From positions 1 to 64,000 of the forward strand of contig JNJQ01000011.1 of the NCBI GenBank assembly GCA_000701725.1: DNA of 64,000 bases, written 5' to 3'. The notes beneath the pieces were generated by a model. The model was not told the origin of the DNA. It worked only from the letters and a program-made list of their open reading frames with translations, and made no database searches. Positions 59,153 through 64,000 of the stretch are shown here, one piece after another. Positions within the stretch are counted from its first letter, which is position 1, and each line of letters starts with the position of its first letter. The translations under genes were made by a program, and so were the position numbers. This DNA comes from Erysipelotrichaceae bacterium NK3D112 (GTDB lineage Bacteria; Bacillota_I; Bacilli_A; Erysipelotrichales; Erysipelotrichaceae).

Positions 59153-60640
59153 ATGCATAACAATGACAAAATCACGAAAAAGAATCTTCTGATGTTTCCT
59201 CTTGGCACGGTTGGACGCGATATCATGTACAACCTTGTCACCAGCTATCTGCTTGCCTTTGTGCTGTTTACCAGAAAACTGGACGCCGCCCAGCTTTCGG
59301 CAATCACCGCAATCATGGTGGCTGCCCGTGTGTTTGACGCGCTCAACGATCCCATTATGGGCAATATCATCGAGCGCACCAGAACGAAATGGGGCAAATT
59401 CAAGCCCTGGCTGCTGATCGGTATCCTGACTACCTCACTGGTGATTTATGCGATGTTCAACACGAAGCTGCAGGGATGGGCATTTGTCCGTTTCTTCGGT
59501 CTGATGTATTTCGCCTACAGCATCACCTATACCATGCATGACATCTCCTACTGGGGTATGGTTCCTGCCTTAAGCTCGGATGCGGACACCAGAAACAAAT
59601 TCACTTCCAGAGCCACTTTGTTTGCCGGTATCGGCGGCATGCTGGCGGCATCATTAATTCCGATGTTCACAGCCGGTGACAGCGCGATCGGCGGCAATGC
59701 CGTGACAGCTTACGGAATCGTGGCGCTGGCCGCTGCCATTCTCGGCCCGCTGTTTCTTGCCTTCACGATTTTCGGAGTCACTGAAGAAAGAAATGCCAAT
59801 GATGAGCCTGCCCCTCCGGTCAGTTTCAAAAAGATCTTTTCCACGATCAGCGGAAACAGCCAGCTGATCTGGATCGCTCTGATCTTCCTGCTGCAGCAGA
59901 TCGGCAACGGTATCGTTCTTTCCGGTATCGGTCAGACTTATATCTATGTGCAGTTTGGCTACAAGGGTGTCTTCTTCACCATGTTCCAGATGCTCGGTAT
60001 GCTGGTTACCGGCTTCCTGATGGTTTTTTATCCGGCAATCTCCAAAAAATTCGGCAGGAAAAAGCTGATGGATTATCTGATGATCATCTCAACCGCCGGC
60101 TATGTTCTCATGCTTGGTGCAGGCTTTATGCCGCTGCCTTCCGGTATTAAATTCGGCATTCTCACATTCGGATACATGCTTGCCAACTTCGGCCAGTACG
60201 GCTTCTATCTGATCATGATGATTTCCATCATGAACACCGTCGAATACAACGAATATGAGCATGGCGTCAGAGATGAGGCGATCATCGGTTCGCTCAGACC
60301 TTTCCTCACCAAAATGGCATCCGCTTTGACGGTGGCCATTGCCAATCTGACCTATATCACATTCGGCATCCTTAAATACACCAATGGCATTTCGGAATAT
60401 GAGCAGGCTGCCAACGCGGGTGAAATCAGCGCCGAAGCAAAAGCCGATGCGATCACGGAACTGCTCAGCAGTGTGCAGAGCGGTCAGTCAATGGGTCTTC
60501 TGGTTGTCATGACCGTTCTCCCCTTCTTGTTCATGTATGCATCCTATGTTCTGTACCGGAAGAAATATATTCTGGATGAGGCGGAATATGAGCGCATCTG
60601 CACAGAACTCGAAGCACGGCAGAAGGAAAAGACCTTATGA
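59153..60640 (+). CDS. GPH-family sugar:cation symporter (MFS)
   Basis: Membrane carrier of 495 residues of the glycoside-pentoside-hexuronide family with twelve helices. VFDALNDPIMGNIIERTRTKWGKFKPWLLIG (near 62) is the hallmark loop, and YSITYTMHDISYWGMVPALSSDADTRNKFTSRATLFAGIG (near 120) follows. It probably takes up a glycoside with H+ or Na+. The PIG-L gene overlaps its stop, so import and deacetylation are likely coupled. ACGGAG precedes the ATG. Confidence 0.92.
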   Translation: MHNNDKITKKNLLMFPLGTVGRDIMYNLVTSYLLAFVLFTRKLDAAQLSAITAIMVAARVFDALNDPIMGNIIERTRTKWGKFKPWLLIGILTTSLVIYAMFNTKLQGWAFVRFFGLMYFAYSITYTMHDISYWGMVPALSSDADTRNKFTSRATLFAGIGGMLAASLIPMFTAGDSAIGGNAVTAYGIVALAAAILGPLFLAFTIFGVTEERNANDEPAPPVSFKKIFSTISGNSQLIWIALIFLLQQIGNGIVLSGIGQTYIYVQFGYKGVFFTMFQMLGMLVTGFLMVFYPAISKKFGRKKLMDYLMIISTAGYVLMLGAGFMPLPSGIKFGILTFGYMLANFGQYGFYLIMMISIMNTVEYNEYEHGVRDEAIIGSLRPFLTKMASALTVAIANLTYITFGILKYTNGISEYEQAANAGEISAEAKADAITELLSSVQSGQSMGLLVVMTVLPFLFMYASYVLYRKKYILDEAEYERICTELEARQKEKTL

Positions 60641-61410
60641 GCCTGACAAAAACCATTCTGAAATTTGCCGCACCGTTTCCGCAGATCGATTCATTTGAGC
60701 GTTATCTGTTTATCGGACCGCATCCCGATGACATTGAAATCGGTGCCGGTGCGACCATTGCCGCACTTGCGGATCAGGGCAAACAGATCTCATTTGTCAT
60801 CTGCACGGACGGCCGATACGGACTTGAACATGCGCCGGAAGGAATGACTCCCGAAAAGCTGATTGAAATCCGCAGACAGGAATCCATCGCTTCCGCGAAA
60901 CTGCTCGGCGTCAATGATGTGACATTTCTGAACTTTTCCGACGGCGGCTTCTATGATCCGAAAGATCTGTTCAGATCCCTTGCCCAAGTGTGCGGCGAAA
61001 AGAAACCGGACATCATCTTCGCACCGGATCCCTCGGTGACAAGCGAATGCCATATTGATCATCTCAATACCGGCAAGGCAGCCAGACAGCTGGCATTCCT
61101 CGCCCCCTTTGATGAGATCATGAAACAATACGGCGCACAAAGCGCTCCCGTAAAAGCCATAGCCTTCTACATGAGCGCAAAGCCAAACCGTTTCATCAGA
61201 ACCGCTCCGTATTTTTCAAAACAGATCGAATCCATCTTCGGAATCCACAAAAGCCAGTTTCCGGAAGGATGTGATGACATCTCATCCATCTCCCTCTATC
61301 TGAAACTGCGATCCTATGATTTCGGCATCCGCAGCTTCAAAGGAAGAGCGGAAGGTTTCCGGGTACTGGGAAGAACCCATATGCACTGTCTGCCTGAAGC
61401 AGGCGACTGA
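60637..61410 (+). CDS. PIG-L family deacetylase
   Basis: The 257-residue zinc hydrolase of the LmbE/PIG-L fold usually removes acetyl from N-acetylglucosaminides. The metal motif FIGPHPDDIEIGAG (near 28) and the second metal block SECHIDHLNTGKAARQ (near 130) are intact. It overlaps the symporter stop as ATGA. It has no signal peptide. An imported N-acetylated glycoside would fit, though the natural substrate is unknown. Confidence 0.9.
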   Translation: MSLTKTILKFAAPFPQIDSFERYLFIGPHPDDIEIGAGATIAALADQGKQISFVICTDGRYGLEHAPEGMTPEKLIEIRRQESIASAKLLGVNDVTFLNFSDGGFYDPKDLFRSLAQVCGEKKPDIIFAPDPSVTSECHIDHLNTGKAARQLAFLAPFDEIMKQYGAQSAPVKAIAFYMSAKPNRFIRTAPYFSKQIESIFGIHKSQFPEGCDDISSISLYLKLRSYDFGIRSFKGRAEGFRVLGRTHMHCLPEAGD

Positions 61411-61489: not shown

Positions 61490-62167
61490 TCAGTCAAGAT
61501 CAGACATGGATGTTTTGCCTGTGAGGGCTTTGAAGTCATCGATGAAATCCTGGATCGCTCCGTCAATGGCGAGATTCTTCACGAATCCCTTGATCACATC
61601 TGCGGCGCAGGTCGCATTGCCGACACCGTATTCAGCCAGCTCAAGCACCTGCTGACTGTTCTTGAAGGAAGCGGCCAGAACTTCGCAATCCATCGCGTTG
61701 TTGTCAAGGATATCCTGGATCTGCTGTACGACTCTGACGCCGTCATAGCCCATATTGTCAATGCGGTTGACATACGGTGCGACATAGGAAGCACCTGCCT
61801 TTGCGGCGAGATATGCCTGCATTGGTGTATAGACAACTGTGCCGCAGGTTGTGATGCCTTCTTTCTTTAAAGCCATCATTGCTTTAAATCCTGTCGGAGT
61901 GGAAGGAAGCTTGACAACGGTGTTCTTTCCGAGCAGCTCAACAATCATATGTGCGTCTTTGATCATGCCTTCAAAGGAGAGATCCACTGCCTGGGCAAAG
62001 ATGATTTTGTCTTCACCGATGATTTCCCGGATTGCCTTCAGGGTTTCTCTGGGATCTCTTTTTGCCTTGGCGAGAATGGACGGATTGGTTGTGACTCCGT
62101 CAACCGGATAATACTCATTGATTTCTTTGATTGCTTCAAGATTTGCGTCATCAATAAACAGTTTCAT
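61490..62167 (-). CDS. fsa: Fructose-6-phosphate aldolase/transaldolase-like protein
   Basis: The 225-residue class I aldolase is of the short transaldolase (FSA) group. KLFIDDANLEAIKEINEYYPVDGVTTNPSILAKAKRD is the family start, TVVKLPSTPTGFKAM (near 83) holds the Schiff-base Lys, and ASYVAPYVNRIDNMGYDGVRVV and VLAASFKNSQQVLE are usual. It starts 20 bases behind the glycyl-radical enzyme gene, a pairing also known from E. coli (ybiW and fsaA). It may cleave the keto product of that enzyme rather than fructose 6-phosphate itself. Confidence 0.9.
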   Translation of the reverse strand: MKLFIDDANLEAIKEINEYYPVDGVTTNPSILAKAKRDPRETLKAIREIIGEDKIIFAQAVDLSFEGMIKDAHMIVELLGKNTVVKLPSTPTGFKAMMALKKEGITTCGTVVYTPMQAYLAAKAGASYVAPYVNRIDNMGYDGVRVVQQIQDILDNNAMDCEVLAASFKNSQQVLELAEYGVGNATCAADVIKGFVKNLAIDGAIQDFIDDFKALTGKTSMSDLD

Positions 62168-62187
62168 CTTTCGTTCCTTCTTTCCTT

Positions 62188-64000
62188 TTAAAGTGACTGT
62201 TCTGTTCTGCCGATAATGTCGTCCTGTGTCTTTCTGGAGAGGACGTTGAAGAATGCGCTGTATCCGGCGACTCTGACGATCAGGTCTTTATGCTTTTCCG
62301 GATGAGCCTGTGCATCCAGGAGGGTTTCCCTGGAAACGATGTTGTACTGAACATGATAGCCGTGCAGTCTGTTGAAGAATGCCCTTAACAGCATCTCCAG
62401 CTTCTGTTTGTTCTCTTCGGTTGATAACATCTGCGGTGTCATCTTCTGGTTCAGCAGCACGCCGCCGGTGATCTTTTCGGTCGGGAGTTTCGTAATGGAT
62501 TTGAAGACAGCGGTCGGTCCGTTCTTGTCAGCGTTGTGTGCGGGTGAGCAGCCTTCCGCCAGCGGTTCACGTGCATTTCTGCCGTCCGGTGTCGCCATGG
62601 TTCCCATGCCCTGGCCGACATTGGCTGAAATTGAGGAGGTTCCGCCATAGCGGATGCCACCGATCGGACCTCTGGCATATCTGGTGTTGGGATACTTTTT
62701 GATTTCGTCCAGGTAGCTGTCATAAGCTTTCACAACCAGCTGATCAACTTCATCGTTGTCATTGCCGTATTTCGGCGCATCGATGAGCATATCCTGGATT
62801 CTCCTGTTTTCCTCACTCTGGAAATCGTCCAGAATTGCATTCCATAACTGTTCCGGTGTGATCTTCTTTTCATCATAGACAAGCTTCTTGATTGCCTCGA
62901 GAGAGTCTGCCATATTGGCGATGCCGACCTGCAGACCGGAGATGAAGTCATAGACGGCGCCGCCCTCTTTGATCGTCTTTCCTCTGCCGATGCAGTCATC
63001 GGTCAAAGCGGAACAGAGGATATCCGGCACATCTCTTTCACTGGCCTTGTCGATCGCGTTTTCGACGATGACACTGTATCTTGTGAACTCTCTGACTGTC
63101 TTGTCCCAGACTTCCATCAGTTCATCGAAATCTTTCCATTCTGTGAAATATCCGTAGCCCTTTGTAAATCTCTTTCCGCTTGTCAGATCAACGCCGTTGT
63201 TCATCGCACATAAGAGAAGTCTCGGGAAGTTGACATAGGACATGCCTGTGCAGCGGTAGCCCCACTTGCCCGGAACAGCGGTTTCCACACATCCGATGGC
63301 ACTGTAGTTGTAGGCATCTTCTTCTTTGACACCCCAGTTGATGAAGGAAGGAATGATGATCTCATCATTGTTGAGGGCCGGCATACCGAAACCGAGTTTC
63401 ATGACTTCGATACATTCATCAAAGAACTGTTTATTCAGGTTGGCGTGATATCTGACTGTCAGGTTCGGCTGGGTCAGTCTTGTCTGTGCAACTGACTGCA
63501 GAACCAGGAAGCTGAGTTCATTGACCGCGTCTTTATGATCTGTCGTCTGGCCGCCGATTGTAACATTCTGATACATCGGGGAGCCGGCAGAGCTGAGTGT
63601 ATGTGCCTGGCTTCTGACTTTATTGATCGTCAGTGTCTTGATCCAGAGACATGTCAGCAGTTCAAGAGCTTCCGCCTTTGTGATCTTCTCATTCTTAAGA
63701 TCATTGATGAAATACGGATACATATACTGATCGAATCTGCCGTAGCTCAATGAATGGCCGTTGGATTCAATCTGAAGAATCAGCTGAATGAACCAGACGG
63801 ACTGGACAGCTTCTTTGAAGGAAGCAGCCGGCTCATAAGGAACTCTTGCACAGATATTGCTCATTTCTTCGAGTTCTGCTTTTCTGGCAGGATCACTTTC
63901 CTTTTCGGCCATCTCAGCCGCCAGAGCACTGTATCTCTTTGCGAATGTATGAACCGCATCGATCACAATCAGCACAGCTTTATAGAAGACATATTTATCG
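62188..64000 (-). CDS. Glycyl-radical enzyme (pyruvate formate-lyase-like), 5' end outside the window
   Basis: The frame is open to the window edge and gives 603 C-terminal residues of a protein that should be near 800. The active-site Cys lies in YNYSAIGCVETAVPGKWGY, and the radical Gly in RVAGYSAFFNVLSRKTQDDIIGRTEQSL at the end. Both are intact. GCVE places it with dehydratase-type enzymes (glycerol, propanediol or AG6P-type) rather than true formate-lyase. The required activating enzyme is not in the window and would be expected upstream. FSA-type aldolase is the next gene. Confidence 0.9.
   Translation of the reverse strand, partial: DKYVFYKAVLIVIDAVHTFAKRYSALAAEMAEKESDPARKAELEEMSNICARVPYEPAASFKEAVQSVWFIQLILQIESNGHSLSYGRFDQYMYPYFINDLKNEKITKAEALELLTCLWIKTLTINKVRSQAHTLSSAGSPMYQNVTIGGQTTDHKDAVNELSFLVLQSVAQTRLTQPNLTVRYHANLNKQFFDECIEVMKLGFGMPALNNDEIIIPSFINWGVKEEDAYNYSAIGCVETAVPGKWGYRCTGMSYVNFPRLLLCAMNNGVDLTSGKRFTKGYGYFTEWKDFDELMEVWDKTVREFTRYSVIVENAIDKASERDVPDILCSALTDDCIGRGKTIKEGGAVYDFISGLQVGIANMADSLEAIKKLVYDEKKITPEQLWNAILDDFQSEENRRIQDMLIDAPKYGNDNDEVDQLVVKAYDSYLDEIKKYPNTRYARGPIGGIRYGGTSSISANVGQGMGTMATPDGRNAREPLAEGCSPAHNADKNGPTAVFKSITKLPTEKITGGVLLNQKMTPQMLSTEENKQKLEMLLRAFFNRLHGYHVQYNIVSRETLLDAQAHPEKHKDLIVRVAGYSAFFNVLSRKTQDDIIGRTEQSL

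Follow-up and report, generated by a model that had tools for sequence, protein, structure and literature searches.

What does a glycyl-radical enzyme (GRE) encoded next to an FSA-type aldolase do in a gut-type anaerobe of the family Erysipelotrichaceae? The pair lies at the end of the 64,000-nucleotide stretch of DNA analysed here (the window), which comprises bases 1-64000 of contig C10 (80,981 bases) of Erysipelotrichaceae bacterium NK3D112. FsaA and FsaB reportedly split 1-deoxyfructose 6-phosphate into hydroxyacetone and glyceraldehyde 3-phosphate, and GldA is said to carry out the reduction that follows. The substrate for such a split is made by YbiW and PflD, which, according to Ma et al. 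2024 (JACS 146:26187) as cited in a passage of the 2025 review PMC12441222, cleave 1,5-anhydroglucitol 6-phosphate (AG6P) and 1,5-anhydromannitol 6-phosphate to 1-deoxyfructose 6-phosphate after phosphorylation by the PTS; the same passage states that the route supports growth of E. coli and many gut bacteria on 1,5-anhydroglucitol. Among the papers searched, none has the phrase 'glycyl radical enzyme' together with 'anhydroglucitol'. A reading of the window from its letters (the sequence-only reading) had proposed that the enzyme may belong to this AG6P route. We find a cassette of an already known kind, closely similar to the recently described E. coli route; relatives give hints of a form with a sugar kinase of its own.

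In the clinic, 1,5-anhydroglucitol serves as a marker for glycaemic control. For this reason, and because the neutropenia of GSDIb and G6PC3 deficiency is due to the toxicity of AG6P (as stated in a passage of PMC12441222), bacteria that remove AG6P anaerobically are of interest.

Layout of the locus

The aldolase, of the FSA/TalC-type class I, is encoded at 61490-62167 on the minus strand (225 aa; Pfam TAL_FSA, 172 bits), directly downstream of the GRE on the same strand after a gap of 20 bases. The pairing described in the sequence-only reading is thereby confirmed; its comparison with an E. coli ybiW-fsaA gene order is mistaken, as fsaA there is transcribed away from ybiY-ybiW and is not placed after ybiW. 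The GRE ORF (PF02901, 707 bits; PF01228, 118 bits) occupies 62188-64000 (-) and runs off the window end, with the C-terminal 603 of its 818 codons inside; the full ORF on C10 spans 62188-64644 (-). Translation probably starts at 64599, since for 45 of the 80 relatives the match starts no earlier than residue 15 and one operator-like site falls between Met16 and the first ATG of the ORF. The radical glycine and the catalytic cysteine (GCVE), earlier described as intact, are both present as Gly794 (RVAGYS) and Cys452, together with Glu454. The genome has no second PF02901 match; one further Gly_radical match elsewhere presumably represents an anaerobic ribonucleotide reductase.

The sequence-only reading had suggested extending the contig in search of an activase and PTS genes. 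The activase was found beyond the window on C10 at 64759-65682 (+), with Radical_SAM and Fer4 domains and a TIGR02494 score of 353.7 bits against a cut-off of 174.35; PTS genes were not, and the window locus has neither a PTS nor a kinase gene. A DeoR regulator (HTH_DeoR and DeoRC domains) is encoded at 65728-66477 (+), so that the activase and DeoR genes are both divergent from the GRE. Two operator-like sites, exact matches to TTACGAAYGAAA, lie at 64612-64623 and 64709-64720.

On the other side, a GPH-family sugar:cation symporter (59153-60640, +; TIGR00792, 245.6 bits, above cut-off) and a PIG-L-family deacetylase (60637-61410, +; PF02585, 107 bits) are encoded by genes that overlap by four bases and converge on the cassette. 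We compared 81 loci, namely the window and 80 relatives from named genomes (the top-ranking 80 among at least 585); of these, the window is the only one with the two genes less than 6 kb from the GRE. The same pair stands at the equivalent place in a very near relative, G061 (98-99.6% identity), and was not found in the stretches examined of G042 and G079. Because it was seen here only in the window organism and G061, we have not counted it in the cassette, and its membership is doubtful.

Relationship of the glycyl-radical enzyme to YbiW

Among solved structures, the GRE scored highest against 6xs4, a YbiW orthologue (865 bits), and YbiW itself (851), followed by glycerol dehydratase (634) and diol dehydratase (582), with PflD (445) ranking below several other GREs. 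The reverse search from YbiW gave glycerol dehydratase only 551 bits and PflD 489. Sequence identity is 49.5% to YbiW, 41.7% to glycerol dehydratase and 35.2% to PflD. In a tree of 46 rows, the query, 20 relatives (taken from 77) and YbiW form one group (support 100/99), with ten uncharacterised GREs as its sister group; the deepest splits, which involve PflB and some long rows, are unreliable, and YbiW stands on a long branch (1.22, the stem of the query group being 0.54). Glycerol and propanediol dehydratases form a separate group, as do PflD and its orthologues elsewhere in the tree (each 100/99). Thus, instead of clustering with the dehydratases, an outcome that the sequence-only reading had named as speaking against it, the GRE groups with YbiW.

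In the alignment, Gly794, Cys452 and Glu454 are identical in 78 of 78 aligned rows of the query group, a count from which L028, L029 and L061 (3 of the 80 relatives) are absent because the ORF caller kept no GRE ORF for them; L149 was left out of both tree and alignment. At 386 positions the 78 rows are fixed (at least 97%); YbiW agrees with them at 284 of these and differs at 102. Exclusive sharing was counted against groups that included 20 hand-chosen comparison GREs from the same taxonomic family; the second, PflD-type GRE of L083 was assigned to the PflD group, and L145, L147, L148 and PflB, present in tree and alignment, were placed in no group. Among the groups compared, YbiW is the only one to share 20 of the fixed positions and the sister group the only one to share two; the glycerol/propanediol dehydratases, the PflD type and five other GREs have no such exclusive position. 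This holds although the YbiW count is favoured: the YbiW group is a single sequence, for which exclusive sharing is easier to satisfy than for larger groups. We therefore repeated the count with one representative per group as a fairer test, and obtained 32 for YbiW, 15 for the sister group, 6 for propanediol dehydratase, 3 for PflD, 2 for glycerol dehydratase and 1 for the other GREs.

The loop after the catalytic Cys-x-Glu reads GYRCTGMS in both the query and YbiW and is identical in all 78 rows; the sister group has GHRATGMT, glycerol dehydratase GWHD and PflD GLHD. Three of the 20 YbiW-exclusive positions (Y463, C465 and S469) fall in this loop, which replaces the Asp loop of the diol dehydratases; its R, T, G and M are also present in the sister group. 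Asp447 and Tyr640 of glycerol dehydratase, which we take to be substrate contacts, correspond to Cys465 and Ser670 in the query, the same replacements as in YbiW. Because of the exclusive positions, the shared loop and these two replacements, a YbiW-like pocket is most likely.

The 102 group-fixed positions unlike YbiW, together with the long YbiW branch and the group stem, make a related substrate possible: the same chemistry might act on another 1,5-anhydrohexitol (or anhydropentitol) phosphate, with the aldolase splitting the matching 1-deoxyketose phosphate. There is a precedent in PflD, described in a passage of PMC12441222 as a similar GRE that prefers the mannitol epimer. The loop and the 20 exclusive positions held in common with YbiW, and an aldolase partner of the same kind, argue for the YbiW substrate, and we regard a different one as unlikely. 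Far less probable again is that the GRE is itself a PflD-type 1,5-anhydromannitol-6-phosphate enzyme. An FSA (FsaB) is also found in the E. coli pflD region, but the low identity to PflD, the separate position of PflD in the tree and its lack of the GYRCTGMS loop largely rule this identity out, and the query reaches 553 bits against the NF007437 cut-off of 1109, which a true PflD-type protein from the same taxonomic family (L146) passes. A glycerol or 1,2-propanediol dehydratase that adjoins the aldolase by chance is just as improbable: His180, His297, Ser298, Cys452 and Glu454 agree with glycerol dehydratase, but the two replaced contacts and the dehydratases' own group in the tree speak against it.

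The sister-group GREs, from the same taxonomic family, are 37-41% identical to the query and often have a different partner. Among 36 of them (one score band among the matches listed, ten of which are in the tree), 20 have a DeoC match (E <= 1e-40, positions compared by eye) within 250 bases on the same strand, two have one within 1.3 kb on the other strand, and 14 have none. The partners scored above the deoC cut-off for deoxyribose-phosphate aldolase (DERA) in all three cases tested. Examples are L155:5132-8387, L157:7738-10932 and L158:7237-10319. These GREs may convert a pentitol or anhydropentitol phosphate to 2-deoxyribose 5-phosphate for DERA; among the papers listed by our literature searches, none describes the GRE-DeoC pairing. 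Two sister-group GREs have other neighbours: an FSA-like aldolase at L159:8766-12772, and SIS and PfkB-like ORFs with a mannose-type PTS at L156:4334-13652 (names assigned by eye).

The aldolase and the proposed route

Thirteen of the 14 FsaA active-site positions compared are identical in the window aldolase: Asp6, Thr26, Asn28, Phe57, Gln59, Lys86, Thr110, Ala130, Tyr132, Arg135, Ala166, Ser167 and Phe168 (query numbers). The sole mismatch is FsaA Leu107, which is Cys108 here. Gln59 and Tyr131 mark FSA as opposed to transaldolase. Identity is 86/219 aligned residues (39%) to FsaA and 92/219 (42%) to FsaB. The strict name is 'FSA-like', since the protein scores below the NCBIfam equivalog cut-off of TIGR00875 (224.8 versus 245.95 bits). 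By analogy with FsaA, it is predicted to split 1-deoxyfructose 6-phosphate.

Taken with the tree and the YbiW loop, which support on sequence grounds the AG6P route proposed earlier, we think it highly probable that the locus is an anhydroglycolysis cassette. Genes, residues, phylogeny and a conserved operator-like motif are observed; substrate and products would be those of YbiW and FsaA. Under anoxia, the divergent radical-SAM activase would install a radical on Gly794, from which it would pass to Cys452. This residue would take a hydrogen from bound AG6P, with cleavage of a ring C-O bond to give 1-deoxyfructose 6-phosphate. The aldolase, through a Schiff base on Lys86, would then yield hydroxyacetone and glyceraldehyde 3-phosphate, the latter entering glycolysis and the former possibly serving as an electron sink on the way to 1,2-propanediol. 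The linked DeoR-type protein presumably acts on two TTACGAATGAAA sites, and both arms of the cassette would be derepressed as an intermediate accumulates. In close relatives, a ROK kinase and GldA encoded in the same operon would supply the kinase and hydroxyacetone-reduction steps.

Relatives, regulation and the source of the 6-phosphate

Partner genes were counted by tblastn within 6 kb of the GRE, with a threshold of at least 45% identity for ROK kinases. Across the 81 loci, an activase was found in 76, DeoR in 66, FSA in 61, GldA in 16, PTS IIC in 15 and a ROK kinase in 5; FSA was not found within this distance in 20, some of whose contigs end early. The frequency of FSA, activase and DeoR argues that the GRE-FSA pairing is not due to chance. 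By record title, hosts among the best 80 relatives include Erysipelotrichaceae, Lachnospiraceae, Oscillospiraceae, Selenomonas, enterococci, streptococci and, in the Actinomycetota, Atopobiaceae, and at least 48 of 272 genomes in the window's taxonomic family have a GRE match of at least 62% identity. Seven loci from Coriobacteria/Atopobiaceae (L028, L029, L030, L032, L034, L041 and L042) encode GREs 76-81% identical to the query and share its operator-like motif, suggestive of transfer across phyla.

Like E. coli YbiW-YbiY-FsaA, the window cassette combines a YbiW-group GRE with the identical loop, a dedicated activase and an FSA-type aldolase that agrees at all but one of the checked active-site positions. 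Unlike the E. coli system, whose GRE is only 49.5% identical, it has FSA right after the GRE, an activase that is divergent and accompanied by DeoR and operator-like sites, and no adjacent ybiV. The streptococcal cassette (for example L073: activase, DeoR, SorC, PTS IIA/IIB/IIC, GRE, FSA and GldA) has a GRE of the same group (70-73% identical), FSA, activase, DeoR and a related operator-like motif; it differs in its PTS and, often, GldA, neither of which is in the window cassette. The E. coli PflD-PflC-FrwBCD-FsaB-GldA region shares the logic of GRE plus FSA, but it is PTS-linked and its GRE belongs to a different group. Both GRE types occur in Streptococcus castoreus (L083:9980-19900), where a YbiW-type cassette with PTS is followed about 3.6 kb on by a PflD-type GRE with activase and FSA. 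In L016 and L020, glgB-like and GH13-like ORFs (named by eye) lie upstream, a possible link to glycogen genes.

We first chose the operator-like motif by visual inspection of the sequence of the window organism itself and then counted it elsewhere, in regions from 260 bases upstream to 60 bases inside the GRE match (at the window's locus, about 200 bases). Allowing up to two mismatches to TTACGAATGAAA, these regions contain 136 sites, spread over 78 of the 81 loci, where mononucleotide shuffles predict 6.0; 132 of the 136 have one orientation, and pairs about 21 or 70-100 bases apart are frequent. In the 3.15-Mb draft genome (96% complete), exact TTACGAAYGAAA occurs exactly twice, both times between the GRE and the activase, and the 64-kb window holds no copy with up to one mismatch. 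The exact motif thus gave no sign of a wider DeoR regulon in the draft genome. The adjoining DeoR protein would be the obvious binder; if so, the regulon here may be the cassette alone, with kinase and carrier controlled elsewhere. Together with the residue signature, the motif allows the Gram-positive form of the pathway to be recognised.

Where, then, would the 6-phosphate come from? Profile matches in the window genome include enzyme I, 15 EIIC matches and 15 ROK-domain matches, some of the latter pieces only. Some relatives have a kinase gene at the locus. In a member of the same genus (G065, identical in sequence to L010; GRE 97% identical) the order is GRE-FSA-GldA-ROK; in L019, an Oscillospiraceae MAG, it is GRE-FSA-ROK-GldA; and in G090 it is GRE-FSA-ROK-DeoR on one strand. 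L017, L066 and G063 have GRE-FSA-ROK, while G037, G020 and L014 have GRE-ROK, with no adjacent FSA found. The L010, L019 and G090 variants share GRE, FSA, activase and DeoR with the window cassette and differ from it by the extra ROK kinase and, in L010 and L019, GldA; the window genome lacks both.

ROKs at least 55% identical to that of L010 occur in 8 of 272 genomes of the family, and five of the eight adjoin a GRE. In G163 the ROK is on a different contig from its GRE, and in the drafts G091 and G016 it stands at a contig end, with no YbiW-type GRE found in either genome; these two speak against strict dependence of the ROK on the GRE, unless the GRE was missed in assembly. Of the listed ROKs with 34-45% identity (E <= 1e-60), none has a YbiW-type GRE closer than 5 kb, as judged by eye. 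The L014 ROK has, at E <= 1e-90, one match in 395 genomes across the class, that of G090, inside the operon. The ROK of L020 was rejected as the linked kinase, being only 24% identical to the linked subfamily and 23-28% to the window genome's ROKs. ROK and PTS IIC never occur in the same locus (0 of 81; ROK 5, IIC 15), but taxonomy confounds this exclusion, since streptococci or enterococci account for 14 of the 15 IIC loci.

We infer from this linkage that the ROK may be a 1,5-anhydroglucitol 6-kinase, and the ROK-linked operons thus name a candidate for that activity. The alternative is a beta-glucoside kinase recruited to a different sugar. The named models that come nearest are the beta-glucoside kinase BglK and glucokinase, both far under cut-off, and the nearest solved structure is 4htl, a beta-glucoside kinase (130 bits). 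None of the best matches of our literature search linked anhydroglucitol to a ROK kinase. Returning to the anhydroglucitol kinase, we tentatively propose that anhydroglycolysis in Bacillota of rumen and gut has a PTS-independent branch, with a non-PTS carrier and, in one operon, a ROK 1,5-anhydroglucitol 6-kinase, a YbiW-type GRE, FSA and GldA. Of this branch the window organism would have a reduced form with an unlinked kinase and the GPH symporter as a possible carrier. This branch is drawn from the relatives and not from the window itself; the window's genome has no ROK of the linked subfamily (best match 43%), and we rate the kinase reading lower because G091 and G016 carry the ROK without a YbiW-type GRE; on balance the proposal has somewhat less than an even chance.

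For the reduction step, L010 and L019 encode GldA-like proteins that score above the cut-off of the glycerol dehydrogenase subfamily. At E <= 1e-30 the window genome yields no orthologue of this cassette GldA, and it has five other Fe-ADH-type matches; hydroxyacetone may be reduced there by another enzyme. In G029, a 77-aa piece of GldA with a stop (C47:779-1009; 90% identical) lies 0.7 kb from the GRE, a sign of gene decay and of ongoing loss of such genes within the genus.
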